IMG/VR virus record: IMGVR_UViG_3300012199_000181
Location: 1-20,140 of that record
Source: a virus
Reading direction: 5' to 3' (one strand)
Length of the DNA: 20,140 nt
In this document: positions 4,497 to 20,140 of the stretch, piece after piece
Numbering within the stretch: the stretch's first letter is position 1
Layout: each line of letters begins with the position of its first letter
Program-made: the position numbers and the translations under genes
Notes under the pieces: model-generated
What the model was told of the DNA's origin: nothing
Seen by the model: the letters and a program-made list of their open reading frames with translations, nothing else
Databases searched by the model: none

Positions 4497-5282
4497 TCAG
4501 ACGTAAAGCACGCTATATACAATATTTATATTAAATGTGCGGCTGGTGAGGTTATCGCTGTAGGATATGGTCTGCGCTCCTGGCGGGAACAAGGGGAACG
4601 CTCCAGTAAAATCCACAGCCACGCCGTTGACGGTAACATTGCTCCTAGCGCAATCAATGACTAGCACGTCACTGGTTGCCCAGGTGCGCTGTACTGTTAT
4701 CTCTTGGCCGTTGCCGCTATTGCCGATAATGACCGTCTTATTGGTCGCACCGCTAACGGCGGTATAGGTGATGGTAAAGATTGGTTGCTGGTATGGAGCT
4801 GTGCCGCCAAAGGTGTAGTTATCGCTGTAGCTGGCACTGGTTCGGCCGCTCACGTTCAGGATAGTAGTTTGGCTGATGTCCTGGCCGAAGGCGTTTGTAC
4901 AGGTAAACGTGATCGTGAAATTAGCGTATGTCAGATAGCCTGGCCTCTGTACATCAATATTGGTAGCGGTAGCCACGTACCGCCTGGTGCCGCCGCCGTA
5001 GTCCATATCAAGGTTCGCCCCTTGCGCTACCAGGTAGCCGTTGAAGGTGTCTATAAGCGTGTCGCAGTCAGAGATAGTCGTGCCGACAATGACCCCGGTC
5101 ACGGTAATAGGTTTGGCTGGATACTCTACAAATGGGATAGCACTGGCGTTGGCATGGGATAACGCGTACGATTGCGCCTTTTTAGCGTTCTTACCGGCGT
5201 GTTCGATGCCTTGCGTGATAATGCCGTGGTTGCCATCGAAGGTTTGCAAACTGTGGCCGTTATAGGAAATCTGAATTGCCAT
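4497..5282 (-). CDS. Distal tail protein (Dit)
   Basis: This 261-residue protein has the two-part layout of siphovirus distal tail proteins, which form the ring joining tail tube to hub. The N-terminal part, about 1-133, is the ring domain and contains KPITVTGVIVGTTISDCDTLID and a Phe-Thr-Ile-Thr-Phe strand. The C-terminal part, about 134-261, is beta-sandwich-like, with the typical ending FPLFPPGAQTISYSDN then RTFNINIVY. Its ATG overlaps the tape-measure stop codon (TAATG), so translation is probably coupled. The gene lies between tape measure and hub, exactly as expected. It carries no large insertion, so any receptor binding is likely by the hub and fibres. Confidence 0.85.
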   Translation of the reverse strand: MAIQISYNGHSLQTFDGNHGIITQGIEHAGKNAKKAQSYALSHANASAIPFVEYPAKPITVTGVIVGTTISDCDTLIDTFNGYLVAQGANLDMDYGGGTRRYVATATNIDVQRPGYLTYANFTITFTCTNAFGQDISQTTILNVSGRTSASYSDNYTFGGTAPYQQPIFTITYTAVSGATNKTVIIGNSGNGQEITVQRTWATSDVLVIDCARSNVTVNGVAVDFTGAFPLFPPGAQTISYSDNLTSRTFNINIVYSVLYV

Positions 5283-6994
5283 TAGTACTGCCCTTGCACG
5301 ACTGACAAGCCACTGCCCGCGTTCAACGAGTCTTGGTTGATCGACTCGAAGAACTTGCTTACGGCCGCTGGTGTGGAGAGCACGACTTGCTGGATATTGA
5401 CTGTGCTGCGGTTGCCGCCATTATAGTTATTGCTGGTGTTATTGTTCACCGGCGATGTGCCGCCACTGGCCGGTACGCCAGTCACTAACTGTGTGGTAGC
5501 GATGTTAGCTTGGGCCTGGATGCCCTGCAAGCCTTGGATAAGCCCAGCACCCATGTTCTTGCCGATCTCAGCGAATACGGCCGACGGCGAGTGGATGCCA
5601 AGCAGACTCTTGAAGCTACTAACAATTTCTTTGCCGAGGTTTTTGACATGGTTTAGGGCTGCTCCGAATTGACCTGTCATGCCGTCGATCAAACCGGCGA
5701 TGATGTCATGACCGGCTTGTGCAAGCAGACTCTTAGGGTGCTCAAGTGCGCTAACAATTTTTATTGCAAGTTTGGCGAGCCAAGAAAAGGCCGTACCGAA
5801 CCAACCAATCAAATTGCTAATCCACCCTATAAGATCAGTGATAACGTGGATGACAAAGGCTAGAACGTCTATGGCAATGCGTAAGCCGTTAATGAATAAG
5901 TAAATAGCGCCGATTAGAGTCACGCCGATAATAACCGCCAGTATCTTCAGCACGTCCATCAATGCTGGCTGTAGAGAGTTGTAAAGCCGGACGACCGCAT
6001 CCCTTATTTCCCTAAACGCCGGCCCGATATTTGATGCCAATGAGTTCCAAAGTGCCTTGAGCGAGGGCATCATAGCTTCAAAGACTGCTTTGACTGTCTC
6101 TATTACATCCTTAAATACTTTCCACTCGGTCTGGAATCCCTTAATCTCAAACTTTGCAAAAGCCTTGGCAAAATTCTCTACATCGCCTATAAAGTCTTTG
6201 AATGTCTTATCGCTGGCGAGTTTAGCAAGCCAGTTGAGGAACTCATTTAACTTCTCCTCGATTTTCGGTATGGCACCAACCCCCAAGTCGATAAAGTGGT
6301 TTTTAAGCATCTCCATCTTGCCAGCAAAGGTAGTTGCAGCCGCCGATGCGCTGCCACCGAACTCCTTAGCCAGCTCTTGGAGTATGAGTTTTTGGGCATC
6401 GGCTTGATCGTTGACAGCCATAAAATGCTTGACTTGTTCCTTTTGCTGGTCACTCAGTGAAACACCGACTTTACGAAGTGCGGTGACACCGTTAATCGGG
6501 TCTTGAAGGGCTTTACCGACCTGAATAGCAGTATTAGACAACTGCTCTGAACTTGGTGTAGCGCCATTATTCATAGCAGTAGCCATGTCGGTAACGGCTT
6601 TAGTAGCTGCGGGGAACACGTCTTTATGAATACTGGTAAAAGTAAGCAGCATGTTTTCTGCCGCCAGAGCAGCTTCACCGTCAATAGGCGTAGTTTTCAT
6701 AATGCTATCTGCCAGATTATTAACCTGGTCGGCCGTTACCCCGGCTGCGCCTCCGGTAGACTTCAAGACAGCTTGCAGCTGTGCTTCGGCCTGCTGATGC
6801 TCTTTGTAGTTATCCGTAACGGCTTTAATGCCCGTCTTGAGACCCTCCCAGGCATCATTGACTAACTGCGCCGCAACTACTCCGCCGCCAACTTGTTTCC
6901 ACAGGCCAGCAAAGCCGTTTTTAGCCTCCTCGACGGCTGCTTTAGAATCGTCGTTGACGTGTATCTTTACGTTTACGTTGGCATCGTCATTCAT
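5282..6994 (-). CDS. Tail tape measure protein
   Basis: This 570-residue protein sets tail length and probably leaves the tail during DNA injection. Residues 1-70 are charged and helical. Residues about 70-245 carry the phage tape-measure core (ENMLLTFTSIHKDVFPAATKAV, GKALQDPINGVTALRKVGVS, ATTFAGKMEMLKNHF). Residues 345-415 are strongly hydrophobic with several potential membrane helices (ILAVIIGVTLIGAIYLF and following), as expected for a protein that may enter the cell membrane. Residues 464-489 include GIHSPSAVFAEIGKNMG, a signature common near the C terminus of tape measures. At about 1.5 angstrom per residue the tail would be roughly 85 nm, a short siphovirus tail. Its ATG lies 6 bases after the stop of the frameshifted chaperone and lacks a strong ribosome site, which suggests coupling. 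Confidence 0.93.
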   Translation of the reverse strand: MNDDANVNVKIHVNDDSKAAVEEAKNGFAGLWKQVGGGVVAAQLVNDAWEGLKTGIKAVTDNYKEHQQAEAQLQAVLKSTGGAAGVTADQVNNLADSIMKTTPIDGEAALAAENMLLTFTSIHKDVFPAATKAVTDMATAMNNGATPSSEQLSNTAIQVGKALQDPINGVTALRKVGVSLSDQQKEQVKHFMAVNDQADAQKLILQELAKEFGGSASAAATTFAGKMEMLKNHFIDLGVGAIPKIEEKLNEFLNWLAKLASDKTFKDFIGDVENFAKAFAKFEIKGFQTEWKVFKDVIETVKAVFEAMMPSLKALWNSLASNIGPAFREIRDAVVRLYNSLQPALMDVLKILAVIIGVTLIGAIYLFINGLRIAIDVLAFVIHVITDLIGWISNLIGWFGTAFSWLAKLAIKIVSALEHPKSLLAQAGHDIIAGLIDGMTGQFGAALNHVKNLGKEIVSSFKSLLGIHSPSAVFAEIGKNMGAGLIQGLQGIQAQANIATTQLVTGVPASGGTSPVNNNTSNNYNGGNRSTVNIQQVVLSTPAAVSKFFESINQDSLNAGSGLSVVQGQY

Positions 6995-7000
6995 GCGGAT

Positions 7001-7192
7001 TTACTTTTTTACCTGTTGGGCTTTGGCTTCCGCCTTAGACTTTATCTCGAAGAGCGCATCAAACCATAAGGGGCGTTGTAGGTATTGGTCGTATGTCCAG
7101 CCGAAGGTTTGGCACATGCTGAGGATGCTAAAACGGGGATCGACTTGGCCGCTGCCGTTTATCACGGCCAAAAAGTAGTCTTTCTCTAGCCT
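7001..7192 (-). CDS. Tail assembly chaperone, -1 frameshift extension (gpT-like part)
   Basis: This frame has no good start of its own. It is entered by a -1 ribosomal slip at 7192-7198 and adds 63 residues to the first 128 of the upstream ORF, giving a 191-residue fusion equivalent in arrangement to lambda gpGT. The extension begins RLEKDYFLAVINGSGQ and contains CQTFGWTYDQYLQRPLWFD, a pattern typical of the T part of siphovirus tail chaperones. It ends in a Lys/Ala-rich tail and a TAA at 7001-7003, 6 bases before the tape-measure ATG. In lambda the T part binds tail tube subunits while the G part binds the tape measure. The same division is inferred here. Confidence 0.88.
   Translation of the reverse strand, partial: RLEKDYFLAVINGSGQVDPRFSILSMCQTFGWTYDQYLQRPLWFDALFEIKSKAEAKAQQVKK
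7145..7171 (-). other. Possible stimulatory stem-loop for frameshifting
   Basis: TTGGCCG and CGGCCAA form a perfect 7-bp stem (7145-7151 with 7165-7171) and a 13-base loop. On the mRNA it begins 20 bases after the slippery site. This is farther than the usual 5-9 bases, so its role is uncertain. It could also take part in a larger fold. Confidence 0.35.
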
Positions 7193-7575
7193 TTTTTTTC
7201 GCTGTCGCTGACCTCGCTGGCAGCTTGCAGCGCCTTTACCCTGCTCATGACGAACTTTACGTCTTGGGTGGGCAGAGCAAGCAATTGGTTGAGTACGTCG
7301 CTGTTATTACCGTCAACTGATAGCACCATCAGCTCTAACAGCTTGTTGTCGGCATTGATCTGCGCCGTCGGGTCGGTTTCCATGACCATTTTGCCGTTCT
7401 TTGGCAATTCGTTGGCGTTCTGACCCTCAAGTCCGGCAGCATCTACCTCGTAGCGCGCCTTATTGGCGCTGAGGCTAATCTTGCGTACTTCCTGGTCGAT
7501 AAAACCAGTTACATAACCTCTGATTGTGACCTGTTTACCGCTGGTGGGCAGCGCTAATGTTTCTATTTCCTGCAT
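7186..7575 (-). CDS. Tail assembly chaperone, in-frame product (gpG-like)
   Basis: This 129-residue protein is encoded between the major tail protein and the tape measure, the fixed position of the tail assembly chaperone. AGGAG lies 7 bases before the ATG. The N-terminal half is beta-rich and the C-terminal half helical (ADNKLLELMVLSVDGNNSDVLNQLL, VKFVMSRVKALQAAS). The last codons are GAA AAA AAA GGC TAG, which place a slippery A AAA AAA heptamer at the stop. Most ribosomes should yield this short form, and a minority the 191-residue extension. It is expected to bind the tape measure and recruit tail tube subunits during assembly and to be absent from the mature virion. Confidence 0.9.
   Translation of the reverse strand: MQEIETLALPTSGKQVTIRGYVTGFIDQEVRKISLSANKARYEVDAAGLEGQNANELPKNGKMVMETDPTAQINADNKLLELMVLSVDGNNSDVLNQLLALPTQDVKFVMSRVKALQAASEVSDSEKKG
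7192..7198 (-). promoter_or_regulatory. Programmed -1 ribosomal frameshift site (A AAA AAA)
   Basis: The minus strand carries eight consecutive A (7199 to 7192), phased as GAA AAA AAA GGC TAG. The P and A site codons AAA AAA can re-pair perfectly after a one-base backward slip. The next -1 codon is AGG, and the -1 frame is then open for 63 codons to 7001, encoding a recognisable chaperone segment. A GAGG lies about 12 bases upstream, where an internal Shine-Dalgarno stimulates slippage in dnaX-type sites. Confidence 0.88.
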
Positions 7576-7584
7576 CGTTCACTC

Positions 7585-8766
7585 CTATGTTAGTGTTGCG
7601 TTCGCGCTAATTACTGTTACACCAAAGGCAGCACCGTCTGAGGTGTCGAACTTAGGAATGTATTTGATGTCGGAGAAGTTGATTTCACCCGCCTTGTACT
7701 TCGGCGTGGGGTCGTTGGTGGTGAGGTTGTTGAAGGTGACGCGGATCTCGTAGGTTTTGCCACCGGAGTAAACAAAGTGACGTACCACGCAGGCGCTTTT
7801 AGCCAGGTTGTTGTAGGCTATAACGTCTTTGGGGTCATCAAAATACTTCTTGATGTTCAAAGCGACCTTAGCGGGCTTCCTGAGCAATACTGCCGGGTCT
7901 TGGCCGCCTGAGCGGTGTTCGCCCTTGGCGTCTTTGAAGTCGTAGGTGATTTCCCAATTCGAGCCTGGTTCTACCCTTGTTTGTGCAGCGCTCAACGCGG
8001 CGCTGGCGGTGCTGCCAAAGCGGAACTCGGTGTTGGACCACAATACGGGCGGCAGCATATTGAAGCTTTGTGTTGCTGCGCGCAGATAAACAAAGTCACC
8101 GCTGGCACCGGCTGCCACGTTAGTCGTTGTAGAGATAGTCGTGCTTGTTACCGCGCTCACCGTGAAGTTAATAATCGAACCAGAGGCTTCGTACAGTGTC
8201 ATAATGTCACCGACTACTACGCCTGTCGCGGGGGCCGGGTCGTAGTCAGTTTTCAGAGTAAAGACATAAGGGCTGGTACCGGCAATGCTAGCGATCTCGC
8301 GGCCTTGGAATGAGCCAAGCGCGCTGATCGTCGGCTTGATGCGTAGCTCGTTGCCGTTGGCCTCAAACGTCAGCTTGGACACCTGGCAGCCCATGTAGCG
8401 CTGCACGATGTTGCCGCTGGAAATATCGAAGGTGTAAGACTTGGGGGCGGCCGGGTCTAGGGTATAAGGCTGGGTGTAAGGGTCGGCACCTGTCCGGCTG
8501 CCCGCTTTAAGCATCATGGCAAAGAGCTTGTCAGCGGTGTTCGGCTCGAAGATCAGGATCATGTCGCCGGTGTGGTCACGGAGTCCGGCCACAACAGCTT
8601 GGGTGCCGTAGACGTTGCCGGCCACTGGCTCCAATTCTTGCAAGTTGCGGTTGGTGGTTATCGAAACGTCGTAAGATTCAAGATAATCGGTAGGAGTGAC
8701 GGCTGTGCCGGCTGTAGTTTCAACTGCCGCCCCTACATAGCCCTTATTAGACAGCGTTTCAGCCAT
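7585..8766 (-). CDS. Major tail protein (tail tube subunit)
   Basis: This 393-residue protein lies just upstream of the tail chaperone. It has the composition of a tube protein: beta-rich, Ser/Thr/Gly-rich and with few cysteines. The N terminus (SNKGYVGAAVETTAGTAVTPTDYL) matches the opening of many siphovirus tube proteins. The body includes VQRYMGCQVSKLTFEANG and the C-terminal part YEIRVTFNNLTTNDPTPKYK. Residues about 165-235 look like an inserted Ig-like or beta domain (DYDPAPATGVVVGDIMTLYE onward), which could decorate the tail surface. The ATG follows the previous TAA by 2 bases, and AAGGAGG lies 13 bases upstream, farther than usual. No alternative start is near. Confidence 0.85.
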   Translation of the reverse strand: MAETLSNKGYVGAAVETTAGTAVTPTDYLESYDVSITTNRNLQELEPVAGNVYGTQAVVAGLRDHTGDMILIFEPNTADKLFAMMLKAGSRTGADPYTQPYTLDPAAPKSYTFDISSGNIVQRYMGCQVSKLTFEANGNELRIKPTISALGSFQGREIASIAGTSPYVFTLKTDYDPAPATGVVVGDIMTLYEASGSIINFTVSAVTSTTISTTTNVAAGASGDFVYLRAATQSFNMLPPVLWSNTEFRFGSTASAALSAAQTRVEPGSNWEITYDFKDAKGEHRSGGQDPAVLLRKPAKVALNIKKYFDDPKDVIAYNNLAKSACVVRHFVYSGGKTYEIRVTFNNLTTNDPTPKYKAGEINFSDIKYIPKFDTSDGAAFGVTVISANATLT

Positions 8767-8768
8767 AG

Positions 8769-9029
8769 TTATTTGCTAGCCTCCTTGTCGGCGTTTGGTT
8801 GCGGTGCGCTTGCTGGTGCTTGATTTACAGGGAGGTTTGGCTGGTCGACAGGAGTTGAGGGTGTGTCTGCCGGTGGCTTTTCGGCAACCATGTTAGTAAC
8901 GTCGTCCTTGACTGCCGTGAGGTAGGGGCCGTTTAGTGGCTCATCGCTCTCAATGAGGTTGTCGGCAAGGTGCCTTGAATTGGCAAATACTCGATTTTCA
9001 GCACCTTTTTTTATTTCATATCTGAACAT
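8769..9029 (-). CDS. Small phage protein with Pro-rich disordered tail
   Basis: This 86-residue protein starts at the ATG at 9029, chosen because AGGAGG lies 4 bases upstream. The frame's earlier ATG at 9044 would run through that ribosome site. Residues 1-45 form a small domain (MFRYEIKKGAENRVFANSRHLAD). Residues about 53-86 are Pro/Ala/Asn-rich and probably disordered. It sits between the tail terminator and the tube protein, 2 bases from the latter, and its own ribosome site is the strongest nearby. Function is unknown. The domain-plus-disordered-tail layout resembles the 125-residue protein encoded at 18192-18569. Confidence 0.72.
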   Translation of the reverse strand: MFRYEIKKGAENRVFANSRHLADNLIESDEPLNGPYLTAVKDDVTNMVAEKPPADTPSTPVDQPNLPVNQAPASAPQPNADKEASK

Positions 9030-12454: not shown

Positions 12455-15400
12455 TTAAGCCACCGCGATGCAACGCCAGAGTGACGTGGCGCTATTAAAC
12501 ATGAAACCTACTGTTAAGGGCAGGGTAGTCGAGCCGTTTGATATTGTAGGCGCTGTAACGTTGGAGTTCTCAGTATTAACCCAGGTAATTGATTGGGCTA
12601 CTGCCGAAGCGTCATAGATACGAATGATCTTAGTTTGGGCATCGGCAGCTGATGCAGTCGTTAGGGTAATTGTCATGGCCGCTGCTGACGAGTTGGTGAA
12701 GTTCTGAATGCCGTGGCTTATGTCGGCTGTACCGGCATTGCCCGATACAGAGATGGTCTGTGGCGTCTGCACCTGCAATGCATACGTCTGAGTGCCGGTA
12801 AATGTCTGAGCGGCATCAGTACGCGCAATCGTAGCTGATGTAGATGGGAAAGTCATAGTGGTAGAGTCAGTACCGTCTAACGTCAGCGACTTGTTTACGC
12901 TCAGTGTCTTGCTGGCCGCACCAAACGATACAGTTCCATCGTTACCGCTGACAGTCAGACTATTTGTGAGGGTTAACGTCTTGCCATCGGTTCCGGCCAA
13001 AGTGATATTGTTATTGGTCGTGAGGGTTTTACCATCAGCAATTGTCAGGGTAGCGCTTGAGGACGGGCTAGTAATGGCTACCTTGTTGATGCTCGTAGCG
13101 GTAGCCGCACCGATTGTCGGCGTTGTTAGCGTAGGCGATGATGCCAACACTACCGCACCGGAACCTTGTACGCCATTGCTAAGATCGCTAGCGGCTAGTT
13201 GGCCAACAGTGATAGCTGCGCCGCTACTCGTTTGCTTTAACACTTGCGACGTTCCACCAGTGCCGCTTAGGTCGGCGTTTGTACCGCCATAGGCAAGTCC
13301 AACCTTGTTAGCATTCCATGTGCCTGCTGTCACCGTGCCGACAGTGGCTATATCTGTGCCAACAAGCTTAGAAGCCGCTATGGAACCGGCCAGCATAGCA
13401 TTTGTAACACCACCAGTTGCTACAGACAGTGTATTGCCAGACTTACTTAAACCGCTGCCTGCGGTAATCTCGCCAGCGCCTGTAAATTGTGCCCAGGCGA
13501 TGTTATTTGTGCCATAAGTGAACGCGGCGTTGGAGCTAGGAGTAGTAACGACATAACCAGCTGAAGCGTTGGCGGTGCCTGCTTCAACGAACGTATATGC
13601 CCCGGCAGGTGGGTCGTTTGAATCGTCCATATCCGTAGCTCTGGATAATGACAGATTAGTGGTGTTGGAGGTAACTACATAAATACCATTGCCCGGCTGG
13701 GTAGAGTTAGCGGAACCAGCGCCAGTTGCGGCCGGTGCATCCTTCACCAATATACGATCATTTACAGACGGTGAGACGCCATCGACAGTGGTTCCACTGA
13801 TCTGGGTCACACTGCCAGAGCTGATGGTAAACGTTTCGCTGCCGGTGGTGGCCGCTTGTACTGACGGCTTGGGGCTGAGTCCTTGCGCCACATTGTCCAC
13901 GTAGCTCTTGTTGGCTGCATCAGTCGAGTTGACCGGCGTGGCTACGTTTACAATCGTATTGGAATTTGAATCGAAGCCTTGCCCTGCCTGTACGAGTCCT
14001 GAAGACTGGAGAATCGTCAAAGGCGAACGGCCGTTTACATTGTCTCTGAATACAAAGTTTTCAGTCGTGTCATTGCGTAGTCCAACTGTCCACTGCACCG
14101 TACCTGCATTGGCCAGCTGCAAACCCGCTGAGTTGCTGGTACCAGCACGGCTAGCATTGAAGAAGGAGTTGGTGCCTGAATTGACATTCAGTGCCGCTGC
14201 GGTGAAAGTTTTTGTGCCTGCAATGGATGACTGAGTGGTTGAGGTATCGACATAACCCGTGAGCGCATCGGGGCCGCCAGCGCTGTGTCTTGAGGCGTGC
14301 GCTTCCAACTGAGCCACAGTGCTGTCTATATTGGAGAACGTGACCCCAGGACAGCCGAATATTGAGATGTTGGTATTGTTATTAAGCTGGACTGCGTAGC
14401 CGGATAGCACCGTTTTATTGCAGTTGATGAACTTAATGCTGGTAGCTTTGCCGGATTGTAATTCGATATCGTAAAGGTTCGTTCCGAGCGTACCGCCAGC
14501 TCTGGTGATATTCTCAAAGGTTATGGCTCTGGAAGTTATGTTGCCAGCTCCAGCGCCAACATAGAACAACGAGTTTACTGTGGTGGTCAGGTCGAAAATA
14601 TCAATATTACGGAACACAAACATAACACCGCTTCGTACTCTAGCCACGCCGCCGTTCGTCACCTCTGCCGTAATATCGGTAAAGTAGTTCGTATACAGGA
14701 AGTCGGCTGAAGCTGACGTTGCAAAGTCGAAGAAGTAGGTAGCGTGCGTTGATTCGGTCTCCAGGGTGAGACGAGTCCATGAGTTAGCGTTATGTACCGC
14801 GCCGGTCGCTGAAGTGAAATCGAAGGCCGGTACAGTTGTCGCGCCGCCATGGTACAAGTAGCACTCCCGCCAGCTGTTGTAGTAATAGCCGAAGTCAAGT
14901 TGTTTCCATATGGACTTGCCAGGGTTGAGCTGCGCGATATAAAGGTTCAGGAAGTAGCACTGTTGCAGCACGCCTTGTGGTGCAAACACATGGCCGCCGC
15001 CAGACCAGACGCGTATTTCCATGTCCCTAAACGTAATAAACTTTTTACCGTCTTCAAAGTGGAACAGATCGTTGGTGCCGGTAGTTGATCGCAGTATCGT
15101 AGCGCCACGGCCAGCGCCTTGCACTACGCTGCCGTTCGGTATCGAAGTAAGTGCGGCGGAGTCGATGTTAAAGGTACCAGGCGGGAAGTCTAAGACAGCG
15201 GCGGTGCTAGGCATAGCGCTTATTGCCGATTGGACGGCGGTCGTGTCATCAGTCGTGCCGTCGCCTTTAGCGCCGTATGCCTTAACGTTATAGACTTGGC
15301 CGCCTTTGTCTTGTAGCGGAGCTTGCAGCGTGCCGTCAACTTGAACGGCGCCGCCAAACTCAGCTACATTGCTTGATGATGAGGCAATAAATTTGCGGAC

Positions 15401-17758
15401 AAGCAGCTGACGGCTGCCAGTCAAGCGCATAATCTCACGGACATTGATGCCGCGAGCGGAAACGCCTGTGCCAGTAGCGATAGCATTACGGTTCAGCACG
15501 AACGTTTTAGCGGTGGTGTCTATAGATAAAATCTTTGTGTCATCGGCAAAATAGGTGATTGCATTGTCCCATATCCAGTCCTCAGCAGCAGGTGTAGCCC
15601 CGGATGAAGACGTGTAACTACCGTTTGGCGAGCCGCTTGTGACCGAGACGCCGCTCATTGTCCACCTACCGCTACCCACTGTTTTGTCTTGAAGCTCAAA
15701 CCGTAGCGGGTTCGGGCTGACATTCTTATACCACTGGCGGAAGCCTAGCCCGTTATCGCGGGAATATTCATCGTTATACAGGTCGAGTGTTCGTGATACG
15801 CTGCCAGGCGCGCCAGAGCGCGTTGTGAGTGAAAGTGTAGCCTCTGAGTCATCTGTAGCCGAAGAACTGGCCACCGGCGAAATGAGGTCGATAATTGACC
15901 AGGCATTGCCGTCGCCGGTCGTATCGCCGGTGCGTCTGACTTCAAGCAAGTCCGAATCATCTTGATCTATCGTGTAGGTTGAAGTGCCGGTGCCATTAGA
16001 GTGCGAAGTAGTAAATCCGGCATGGCCGCTAACAGTGCCGCTGGGATCTGACAGTGTTAAGTTTGCGTTGTCATCTAGTGATGCGTTGCTATTTTGTGCA
16101 AGTTTGCCTGTCGTGCCGTTAAAGCGAACAACCGCGTTATCAGTGGCCGATGCTGGGCCGATTATTGCACCAGCACTGCTATGTGTATCCACATAATTTT
16201 TAGTGGCTGCATCTTGTACGCTAGTGGGATCAGTAACATTCGTGAGCTTATGATTAATGGCTGTGTCGCCAGCTAAATGTAGCCCAGTTACTTGAGGGGC
16301 ACTCGCAGTACCGCCGTTAATATCGCCGCCAAGCTGTACCCGCGCCGCTAAGTCTGAAGTAAGGTTCGTAACTTGCGACTCAGTGATATTTGGCACATCC
16401 CCCGCTTGTATTGATGATAGCGTGGTGTGTGTACCATCCGAACGCAGATATTTGCCAGAGGATTGTGCGCCGGCTAGTGCATCCATCGATGCTTGCTGCG
16501 TCGCTTGACCAGTGCCACCGTTGGCCACACTGACTGGCGTATTGAGTGAAATAGTATTACCAGATTTGCTAAGACCCGTGCCGGCTAAGGTGGCACCGGC
16601 AGAGCTGAACTGTGTCCAGGTTTGGCTCGTGGTATCGACAGTAATTGGTGTCGCACCAACCAGTACCCAGCCTGAACTACCATAGGTTGTACCACCATCG
16701 ACAAAGGTGAAAGCCCCGAGTTGGCTTGAACCGCTCGCAAAATCAGTTGGTCGAGTCCAGCTGCTTGATTGCACCACCCAAATCCCGTTTTGACTAGCGG
16801 TTGTTTGGCCGGTTAGGAGTACTCGGTTGCCAACCGTTAGCGATACGCCGTCGATAGTCTGCGTGCCGCTCAATGTCACATTGCTCGTACTAAGTGCTGC
16901 CACGCTATTTTTAACAGATAAGCCCTGGGCTATCGCATCAACATAGGCTTTATTGGCTGCATCAGATGAGCCGCTTGGAGCAGGTACTGACGGCGAGGAT
17001 GAGAAGGTTTTAACACCAGCAACGTTTTCATTGCCGGTGGTATGCACCACCGCAGAGTCATTGGCTTTAGCGGCTAAGTCAGTGGTCAGGTTCGCGACAT
17101 CGGATTCGGTGATCGCCAATACTGTTTTGACCTGACTTGCTGTCAGATCGGCCGCATTTGCCGGAGACGCGGTATTATTGCCTTTGATTGTATTGGCTGG
17201 CAGCTGCGCTTGCTTAGCGTTGGTAACGGCGTTATTAGCTATCGCAGGGCTGGCTGCCGTGCCAGCAAGATCGCCGGCGAGCTCGATTACTCCGTAGCTG
17301 CTCGTAGAAGCGGCAGGCAGGTTGGCAACTGGCACCGCTGCACTGCTATTGAGCGGGGCATAGCCGTTGGCCGCGCCTTTATTTGCCGTGTACTCATAAG
17401 GATACGAGCCGCCGCCAGTCTCAAGGTTATTGACTGCCGTTTGCAGATCGGTCGTATTTTGCGCGACATCGAGCAACGCGACCGTTACTTGTCCGGTGTG
17501 TATTTTAGTAGTCGCTGAGATGGTAAATACATCACCAGAGCGGGCGCTGACCAGCACCTTCTCCATATTCGGATCGAGCGCCGGGTTGGAAGGGAACGAG
17601 AGGCCATTCCAGAGTGTGACAATAAACCCGTTGCCTGGTTGTGGAAACTTTGCGCCATCGCCTGAGTGGAGCGTGATGGAGGTGACGCCGGTGGTACTCA
17701 GGTTGGTAAGCGTCGTACTGATCGCGTTGTCGGCTGTTTGTTTGAAGGCTGTCGCCAC
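12455..17758 (-). CDS. Large tailspike/tail fibre with pectate-lyase-like beta-helix
   Basis: This 1767-residue protein is the largest gene here, starting at a GTG with AGGGG 6 bases upstream. Residues 1-120 look like the virion-attachment end. Residues 188-260 have the phage fibre repeat NTIKGNNTASPANAADLTA. Residues 263-406 and 1277-1447 are two copies of one module (SDAANKAYVDAIAQGLS ... GLSKSGNT). Residues about 820-1140 form a right-handed beta-helix of the pectate lyase 3 type, starting YNVKAYGAKGDGTTDDTTAV and including LDFPPGTFNI. HASRHSAGGPDAL follows near 1154, a motif common in fibres. The C-terminal 300 residues are Ser/Thr-rich repeats ending in a compact cap (FMFNSATSLWRCIAVA). 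Beta-helices of this kind often cleave or bind host polysaccharide. I could not identify catalytic residues, so enzymatic activity is unproven. Confidence 0.87.
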   Translation of the reverse strand: MATAFKQTADNAISTTLTNLSTTGVTSITLHSGDGAKFPQPGNGFIVTLWNGLSFPSNPALDPNMEKVLVSARSGDVFTISATTKIHTGQVTVALLDVAQNTTDLQTAVNNLETGGGSYPYEYTANKGAANGYAPLNSSAAVPVANLPAASTSSYGVIELAGDLAGTAASPAIANNAVTNAKQAQLPANTIKGNNTASPANAADLTASQVKTVLAITESDVANLTTDLAAKANDSAVVHTTGNENVAGVKTFSSSPSVPAPSGSSDAANKAYVDAIAQGLSVKNSVAALSTSNVTLSGTQTIDGVSLTVGNRVLLTGQTTASQNGIWVVQSSSWTRPTDFASGSSQLGAFTFVDGGTTYGSSGWVLVGATPITVDTTSQTWTQFSSAGATLAGTGLSKSGNTISLNTPVSVANGGTGQATQQASMDALAGAQSSGKYLRSDGTHTTLSSIQAGDVPNITESQVTNLTSDLAARVQLGGDINGGTASAPQVTGLHLAGDTAINHKLTNVTDPTSVQDAATKNYVDTHSSAGAIIGPASATDNAVVRFNGTTGKLAQNSNASLDDNANLTLSDPSGTVSGHAGFTTSHSNGTGTSTYTIDQDDSDLLEVRRTGDTTGDGNAWSIIDLISPVASSSATDDSEATLSLTTRSGAPGSVSRTLDLYNDEYSRDNGLGFRQWYKNVSPNPLRFELQDKTVGSGRWTMSGVSVTSGSPNGSYTSSSGATPAAEDWIWDNAITYFADDTKILSIDTTAKTFVLNRNAIATGTGVSARGINVREIMRLTGSRQLLVRKFIASSSSNVAEFGGAVQVDGTLQAPLQDKGGQVYNVKAYGAKGDGTTDDTTAVQSAISAMPSTAAVLDFPPGTFNIDSAALTSIPNGSVVQGAGRGATILRSTTGTNDLFHFEDGKKFITFRDMEIRVWSGGGHVFAPQGVLQQCYFLNLYIAQLNPGKSIWKQLDFGYYYNSWRECYLYHGGATTVPAFDFTSATGAVHNANSWTRLTLETESTHATYFFDFATSASADFLYTNYFTDITAEVTNGGVARVRSGVMFVFRNIDIFDLTTTVNSLFYVGAGAGNITSRAITFENITRAGGTLGTNLYDIELQSGKATSIKFINCNKTVLSGYAVQLNNNTNISIFGCPGVTFSNIDSTVAQLEAHASRHSAGGPDALTGYVDTSTTQSSIAGTKTFTAAALNVNSGTNSFFNASRAGTSNSAGLQLANAGTVQWTVGLRNDTTENFVFRDNVNGRSPLTILQSSGLVQAGQGFDSNSNTIVNVATPVNSTDAANKSYVDNVAQGLSPKPSVQAATTGSETFTISSGSVTQISGTTVDGVSPSVNDRILVKDAPAATGAGSANSTQPGNGIYVVTSNTTNLSLSRATDMDDSNDPPAGAYTFVEAGTANASAGYVVTTPSSNAAFTYGTNNIAWAQFTGAGEITAGSGLSKSGNTLSVATGGVTNAMLAGSIAASKLVGTDIATVGTVTAGTWNANKVGLAYGGTNADLSGTGGTSQVLKQTSSGAAITVGQLAASDLSNGVQGSGAVVLASSPTLTTPTIGAATATSINKVAITSPSSSATLTIADGKTLTTNNNITLAGTDGKTLTLTNSLTVSGNDGTVSFGAASKTLSVNKSLTLDGTDSTTMTFPSTSATIARTDAAQTFTGTQTYALQVQTPQTISVSGNAGTADISHGIQNFTNSSAAAMTITLTTASAADAQTKIIRIYDASAVAQSITWVNTENSNVTAPTISNGSTTLPLTVGFMFNSATSLWRCIAVA
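13418..13930 (-). repeat. Second copy of tailspike module
   Basis: This encodes residues about 1277-1447 of the tailspike. It starts with STDAANKSYVDNVAQGLS and ends with SGLSKSGNTLSVA. It is the diverged partner of the module at 16541-16972. This copy is longer because of an inserted Gly/Ser/Ala-rich stretch around the NGIYVV segment. Confidence 0.6.
14333..15301 (-). other. Beta-helix domain of the tailspike
   Basis: This encodes residues about 820-1142. The beginning, KAYGAKGDGTTDDTTAVQSA, is the classic start of pectate-lyase-3 phage depolymerase domains. FPPGTFNIDSAALTSIPNG and VVQGAGRGATIL follow, then many short strands with Asn, Thr and aromatic residues typical of helix rungs. Confidence 0.75.
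16541..16972 (-). repeat. First copy of tailspike module
   Basis: This encodes residues about 263-406 of the tailspike. It starts with SSDAANKAYVDAIAQGLS, contains TIDGVSLTVGNRVLL and NGIWVV, and ends with GLSKSGNTISL. The same ordered motifs recur at 13418-13930, so the two copies flank the beta-helix. Confidence 0.6.
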
Positions 17759-18578: not shown

Positions 18579-19193
18579 CTAGCTCGTCACCCGCTTAGAG
18601 GTCGTTAGTTCCTTAGTAATGTAGGCCATGACGATTGGCTTTGAACCGTTAGGAGCGGTGTTGGTCGATGCCGTGTTGCTCTCAATAGCGCTCGTCGATG
18701 TGGCGACAGTCGGCCTAGTGGCTTCCCATGTGCCGTTAACCTCAGTGCCAAGCACCAAATCTGCCGGTAACATACGCTCAAGTCCAAGCTTTACGCCGAT
18801 GCCGACGCTAATTGTGTCATTGGCGTCATTGGTGTAAGCCGGTAGTACGATGCTAGTAACAGTCTTGAAGGCTTTATTGCCGACAACCGTGGCTGTACCG
18901 TTTGAGGTAATGTTCTCAGTGATCGTCGCGCCCCGGATGTTCGTACCGTTGATGGTCACAACACCGTTCTGGCCGGCGAAGCCGCCAGTGATGGTAATGT
19001 TGCGCGGAAAATCGGGGTTGGTGAGGTTGGCGGTTATCGTTTGGGCGGCAACAGCCAAGTTGGTTGCCGCTAGTACAGCAGTGGCGCTGGCGGCTGCCGG
19101 ATTAGTCCAAGTCTGGACATACACAGCACCGTACTTGGACTGAAGCTCGTTGACGATCCTACGCTCGTTAGAAGTCTTGATGATCTGCATCAT
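18579..19193 (-). CDS. Probable head decoration / capsid accessory protein
   Basis: This 204-residue protein is encoded directly after the major capsid gene. AAAGGAG overlaps the capsid stop codon. Two ATGs occur in a row (19193 and 19190), and the second has the better spacing. The protein is rich in Ala, Thr and Val with many beta strands (ATAVLAATNLAVAAQTITANL, NITITGGFAGQNGVVTINGT, KTVTSIVLPAY). This is common in phage decoration or capsid-stabilising proteins. The C-terminal part (about 165-204) is Ser/Thr/Asn-rich and likely flexible. Position and composition give the call; a known family was not recognised. Confidence 0.6.
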   Translation of the reverse strand: MMQIIKTSNERRIVNELQSKYGAVYVQTWTNPAAASATAVLAATNLAVAAQTITANLTNPDFPRNITITGGFAGQNGVVTINGTNIRGATITENITSNGTATVVGNKAFKTVTSIVLPAYTNDANDTISVGIGVKLGLERMLPADLVLGTEVNGTWEATRPTVATSTSAIESNTASTNTAPNGSKPIVMAYITKELTTSKRVTS

Positions 19194-19201
19194 GAACTCC
19201 T

Positions 19202-20140
19202 TTAAGCTACAGCATTTTTTATGAGATAGAACGCCTCCGGGCCGACAACTTCAGCGTGGTAGTAATCGTTGTTGCGAATCCACTTCGTCTTGCGCTTCTG
19301 CTCGAACCAGCTATCTACGTAGCGGCCCTGCTCAAGCGTGAAGTGGTAGGCACCGTTCACTGTGCGTAGTCCTGGGGTTGGGGTAATGTAGGCGAGCCAC
19401 ACATGGTTGCCCCAAACGAAGTTCATGGAAGCGGTCAAGTTCTCGGCGGCACTGTCGTACACCGCGCTAGAAACGAGAATCTTGTTGATGCCGAACTGAC
19501 CGAACAACTGTTGCATCAGTTCCAGTGTGAGGCTGGCAACGTTGGAGTACTTGACGCGCTCAATGAGGTCGGGGTGCTGTTGCAGAATTGAGAACGTGTA
19601 GTAGCTCATGAACAGCGTGTTGGCAGGCTTCAGGCCATTCTTGCGCTGTTGCTGGGCACCAGTCTTCAAATCCTCAAAGGGTGTGGAGTTAGCGTAGTCG
19701 CTCCACTGGTTTGTGCCGGAAAGGGTCGTGTTGATGGTCAACTTAGCAGTATCGGCCAGAGTAGTAGCAACGGCTGTCTCCTTGGTCAGCGCCATCATTT
19801 CGCTCAAGTTGTTCACGATGTCGATTTCAAGATCAAGCGGAGCTTCGGTCATTACATCCTGGTCGAAGTCGATACCGTCCATCAACTCGTGACCGCGCAG
19901 TGGGCCGAACGCCTTGGAAGTCATACTGAACTGTGCCTGCTTGGTTTCACCGAAGCGGGTACGGGTGTCATCAACCACTTGCTTCAGGGCTTCCTTGCCG
20001 TATGTATAGATATTGAATTGTTTCTTAGGCACCATGACTGCTGGTGCCACCTGCTCGGCAATGAACTGAGCGGGGTCGTTGTAATATGCCTGGCTAACAT
20101 TAGTTAGAGGAATATCTTTGGTGAAAAATTGACCTTGCAT
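19202..20140 (-). CDS. Major capsid protein
   Basis: This 312-residue protein starts at the ATG in the last bases of the window, so its upstream signals cannot be judged and an earlier start is not excluded. The N terminus (FTKDIPLTNVSQAYYNDPAQ) and the following VAPAVMVPKKQFNIYTYGKEAL are typical of HK97-fold capsid proteins of the roughly 300-residue type. Later segments include LRGHELMDGIDFDQDVMTEA, ANTLFMSYYTFSILQQHPDL and ASMNFVWGNHVWLAYITP, which match a common capsid pattern. The C terminus ends EAFYLIKNAVA. It would form the icosahedral shell. No delta domain is evident, so any scaffolding or protease would be encoded beyond 20140. Confidence 0.88.
   Translation of the reverse strand: MQGQFFTKDIPLTNVSQAYYNDPAQFIAEQVAPAVMVPKKQFNIYTYGKEALKQVVDDTRTRFGETKQAQFSMTSKAFGPLRGHELMDGIDFDQDVMTEAPLDLEIDIVNNLSEMMALTKETAVATTLADTAKLTINTTLSGTNQWSDYANSTPFEDLKTGAQQQRKNGLKPANTLFMSYYTFSILQQHPDLIERVKYSNVASLTLELMQQLFGQFGINKILVSSAVYDSAAENLTASMNFVWGNHVWLAYITPTPGLRTVNGAYHFTLEQGRYVDSWFEQKRKTKWIRNNDYYHAEVVGPEAFYLIKNAVA

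Follow-up and report, generated by a model that had tools for sequence, protein, structure and literature searches.

Does the short open reading frame (ORF) between the tail tube and tape measure genes of this DNA end where its stop codon lies, or do some ribosomes read on into a second frame and make a longer protein? The window, that is, the whole stretch of DNA analyzed here, is an IMG/VR virus record of 20,140 bases from an uncultured virus of bacteria. A -1 slip in the tail chaperone gene is a well-known trick of long-tailed phages, and an earlier note had read this locus as such a case. Here we set out the gene layout and slippery site in the window, the comparison with related loci and the other ways in which the two frames could be expressed.

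Gene layout and slippery site in the window

The earlier note had likened the position of the locus to that of lambda G/GT, and the flanking genes bear this out, with a Phage_tube_2 match on one side and a PHROGs tape measure match on the other (Table 1). The putative G/GT gene sits between the two, all on the same strand. The predicted Dit gene confirms a siphovirus-type tail module, and a neck/tail completion protein is encoded further upstream of the tube gene. The tail genes are adjoined, on the same strand, by a gene for a protein of the sigma-70 family whose regions 2 and 4 show an ECF-like layout (522-1487). Between the head and connector genes, an unusual place, lies a gene for a 1,767-aa fiber-like protein with a pectate-lyase-like domain (12455-17758).

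Table 1. Positions of the tail genes and of the candidate recoding elements in the window
Feature	Position	Strand	Basis
Distal tail protein (Dit)	4497..5282	-	Pfam/PHROGs searches
Tape measure protein	5282..6994	-	PHROGs tape measure, E 3.7e-26
-1 frame T extension, 63 codons plus stop	7001..7191	-	sequence; T profile of relatives
Possible weak stem-loop downstream of heptamer (GGCUAGAG...CUUUUUGGCC), putative stimulator	7140..7191	-	folding z
Zero-frame TAG stop ending gpG	7186..7188	-	sequence
Slippery heptamer A_AAA_AAA, inside eight-A run 7192-7199	7192..7198	-	sequence
gpG-like tail assembly chaperone, zero-frame product, 129 aa	7186..7575	-	ORF, ATG 7575
Tail tube protein (Phage_tube_2)	7585..8766	-	E 1.7e-13

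In the zero frame, the G ORF ends with GAA (7200-7198) AAA AAA GGC TAG, GGCTAG following directly after the eight A's and the single codon GGC separating the heptamer from the stop. A -1 slip on A_AAA_AAA (7198-7192) would join 128 residues to the 63 of the extension, the new frame reading RLEKDYFLAVINGSGQVDPRFSILSMCQTFGWTYDQYLQRPLWFDALFEIKSKAEAKAQQVKK and running to a TAA stop at 7003-7001; the 129-residue ORF, its end and the 191-residue total are exactly as the earlier note had given them. The open -1 frame reaches back to 7303, which leaves an overlap of 118 nt with the G ORF, and the first base of the tape measure gene, 6994, lies seven bases past the end of the extension at 7001. The 191-aa product, made of the 128 upstream residues and the T extension, is very probably a gpGT-like fusion. 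The extension had also been described as having no start of its own, which the sequence contradicts, possible starts being TTG 7171 (56 aa), GTG 7165 and ATG 7117.

How far these features might arise by chance was assessed by shuffling. The -1 frame after the A run stayed open in 147 of 5,000 dinucleotide shuffles (about 3%). Of the codon-shuffled G ORFs, 10% had a canonical heptamer somewhere in the 118-nt overlap and 1.2% had one in its last 18 nt. A heptamer alone proves nothing, since a second in-frame A_AAA_AAA, at 9012 in a neighboring ORF, leads into a -1 frame of just 4 codons. Codon usage across the T region did not clearly favor the T frame over the other frames. Evidence from the window alone, namely, the site and the open frame, is thus moderate and suggestive, and it is the relatives that make the case firm.

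One more heptamer, A_AAA_AAT at 19214-19220, is found toward the end of what is likely the major capsid ORF, and its -1 frame is in phase with the next ORF (18579-19193); as the latter has an AAAGGAG ribosome site of its own, the heptamer is probably incidental.

Similarity of the G and T segments to other proteins

Tail assembly chaperone proteins are highly divergent, so that a family match is supportive rather than defining. The search proposed in the earlier note, the 191-residue fusion against the tail-chaperone profiles of Pfam, gave no match, and neither Pfam nor PHROGs gave a family match for the fusion or its parts. Comparison of the fusion with phage records, at both the DNA and the protein level, returned nothing significantly similar, and single-protein scans of viral contigs with G, T, tube and Dit found no relatives. 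To speak of a clear gpT-like segment, as had been done, was therefore too strong, since the link runs only through a profile of relatives.

That profile was built from the T segments of eight relatives, chosen partly for a shared WT motif and with the window left out. Searched with it, the -1 frame of the window ranked first of 442 ORF segments (E 0.13; next, 14), and 2 of 5,000 shuffles of the sequence scored as well. A broader profile from 15 relatives, a fairer test because the eight had been partly selected for WT, again placed the window T first (E 0.19; next, 1.9), with 5 of 5,000 shuffles as good. What the T segments have in common is a WT-containing motif following an aromatic residue. 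The G protein of the window matched that of one related locus, L030 (phmmer E 1.4e-5, 28% identity), and the G parts diverge too far for a profile of the relatives' G proteins to have singled it out. In a fold search with the G model (pLDDT 60), several top viral matches were named tail assembly chaperone (E 0.04 or weaker); the PDB fold search with this model returned nothing. T is predicted to form a small helical bundle, and neither predicted structure is strong evidence for chaperone identity.

Slippery sites in related loci

Taking the tape measure gene as an anchor, we collected about 95 loci from viral and genome contigs. Pairs were chosen by ORF layout alone: the end of the first ORF had to overlap with an open stretch in a different frame, and that stretch had to stop just short of the tape measure gene; near-identical loci were removed, and those above 56% G+C were left out. 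This gave 23 pairs with a -1 relation, the window included, and 2 with a +1 relation. An in-frame X_XXW_WWN heptamer was found within the final 90 nt of overlap in 21 of the 23 -1 pairs, 2 being without one, and in neither of the +1 pairs. Slippery site and extension are thus conserved in relatives, which upholds the earlier reading of a programmed -1 frameshift. Counted per position, heptamers occurred at 24 of 397 positions in the overlaps versus 14 of 2,861 in the upstream in-frame background of the same ORFs (odds ratio, 13; Fisher p 1e-13, an optimistic value because the window is among the 23 and the pairs are mutually related). Effect size and heptamer diversity are a stronger argument than the p value, the sites in the pairs comprising A_AAA_AAA/G/C, C_CCA_AAA/C, G_GGA_AAN and C_CCT_TTA. 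The T segments of two relatives, L006 and L008, matched phrog_9001, "tail assembly chaperone" (E 5.8e-6 and 0.0019, respectively).

Among named phages, the Gordonia phages Malibo and NancyRae and the Microbacterium phage GardenState have tape measures homologous to that of the window and, directly upstream, a tail assembly chaperone for which two forms are annotated, one short and one joined. Three bases before the end of the short form lie G_GGA_AAC, G_GGA_AAA and G_GGA_AAC, respectively, in a -1 relation. These chaperones share with the window the adjoining homologous tape measure, the -1 extension and the heptamer at the end of G, but their sites are G_GGA_AAC/A, their T extension is longer and no alignable G or T was found. 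Bacillus phage vB_BpsS-36 also has a tape measure homologous to that of the window, and its T, which matches phrog_9001 (E 1.6e-25), is the T segment of a -1 pair upstream of it; relatives of the window match this family as well, whereas the window's own T falls below threshold. The -1 extension is present upstream of homologous tape measures, named phages included.

The vB_BpsS-36 record (MH884513.1; L099:2232-2821) annotates two separate hypothetical genes of 345 nt and 183 nt. An A_AAA_AAG heptamer lies immediately before the first stop, with the -1 frame open across it, so that the record probably lacks a joined chaperone.

Another relative, L016, has a 55% identical tape measure, preceded by one continuous 195-aa ORF with no split G/GT (L016:3269-3856). 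The end of this ORF resembles T segments by eye, and the lineage may make only the fused chaperone.

The window thus has the site, the open frame and the gene order, and its relatives have the same architecture with slippery sites of their own. Slippery site, -1 extension and gene position are conserved in relatives, and we take this family evidence to be decisive. Gene order combined with slippery-site statistics over relatives identifies the chaperone where family models do not. Such models miss the fusion in the window, and the chaperone of vB_BpsS-36 is annotated as two genes; herein lies the practical value of the approach for annotation.

Ribosomal slippage and other explanations

The same fusion could arise at transcription, if RNA polymerase slipped on the eight A's so that some mRNAs gained an extra A and standard translation then entered T. 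The DNA does have eight A's, and in bacteria RNA polymerase is known to slip on runs of about nine A's or T's (PMC5009743), but the homopolymer run is not conserved as such, since relatives at the same gene position use C_CCA_AAA/C, G_GGA_AAN and C_CCT_TTA, and many have mixed heptamers such as C_CCA_AAC or G_GGA_AAT. Because the heptamers at this position are not all homopolymers, ribosomal slippage is favored as the shared mechanism, and we consider the polymerase explanation improbable. That the window lineage alone moved its G/GT switch from ribosomal to RNA polymerase slippage on A8 seems to us a shade less probable still; if it did, the chaperone ratio would be set at transcription.

The possible starts in the extension raise another prospect, that T is a separate small protein made by coupled reinitiation in or just after G, at TTG 7171, GTG 7165 or ATG 7117, and that there is no fusion. 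TTG 7171 lies 14 nt past the TAG, close enough for reinitiation, but it lacks a good Shine-Dalgarno sequence; at least six relatives (L006, L017, L047, L051, L052 and L067) lack any ATG, GTG or TTG in the T frame as far as 60 nt beyond the stop of G and nevertheless retain heptamer and extension, and heptamer enrichment would be left unexplained. We therefore regard a separate T as very unlikely. A sequencing or assembly error, the true gene having nine A's and one continuous ORF, is conceivable for a homopolymer in an uncultured virus contig, and L016 does have a single ORF at this position. The split layout with its heptamer, however, recurs in the 21 pairs, across many assemblies and at sites mostly other than A8, which makes such an error hardly credible.

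We hold it to be highly probable, then, that the locus encodes a tail assembly chaperone of the lambda G/GT type, with two products generated by a -1 ribosomal slip. Most ribosomes would stop at the TAG to give gpG, while a minority would shift into the -1 frame at A_AAA_AAA and translate a further 63 codons to give gpGT. Points against this reading are that in E. coli A_AAA_AAA is reported to be less shift-prone than A_AAA_AAG (PMC5009743), that the structure downstream of the site is weak, and that two pairs are without a heptamer and L016 has an unsplit ORF. The resemblance to lambda gpG/gpGT lies in the order tube, G, GT, tape measure, in the -1 shift close to the 3' end of G and in a short T extension that runs up to the tape measure gene; the differences are that the slippery site is A_AAA_AAA, whereas that of lambda is G_GGA_AAG, and that the window protein has no detectable similarity to named families. 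In lambda, the binding partner of gpG and of the -1 frameshift product gpGT is the tape measure protein, and that of T is the tube protein; the gpG:gpGT molar ratio is about 30:1 and matters (PMC5009743); the original work is that of Xu, Hendrix and Duda (2004), as cited in PMC10885494. By analogy, the G part would coat the tape measure protein and the T part recruit tube protein, G and GT would both leave before tail completion, and the G:GT ratio would matter. The occurrence of the slip, its frequency and these contacts are inferred. The system is of an ordinary, well-known kind and the instance is new, a diverged and previously unannotated example of a recoding event that is widely conserved.

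Putative stimulatory elements around the slippery site

Downstream of the heptamer, the possible stem-loop folded with z values of -1.6 to -2.1 in short stretches and -0.2 in a longer stretch; the structure is weak, and a role as stimulator is only putative. On the 5' side, a Shine-Dalgarno-like GAGG lies about 13 nt from the slippery site. We rejected it as a stimulator, since its Shine-Dalgarno energy (-6.7 versus -5.2 for shuffles) is not remarkable and it is not consistently present in relatives.

Among the relatives, three with A_AAA_AAC sites (L021, L051 and L078) have strong folds downstream of the heptamer (z -5.8, -4.3 and -2.6, respectively), whereas A_AAA_AAA/G sites are mostly without a strong downstream fold, as if weaker sites required structure.
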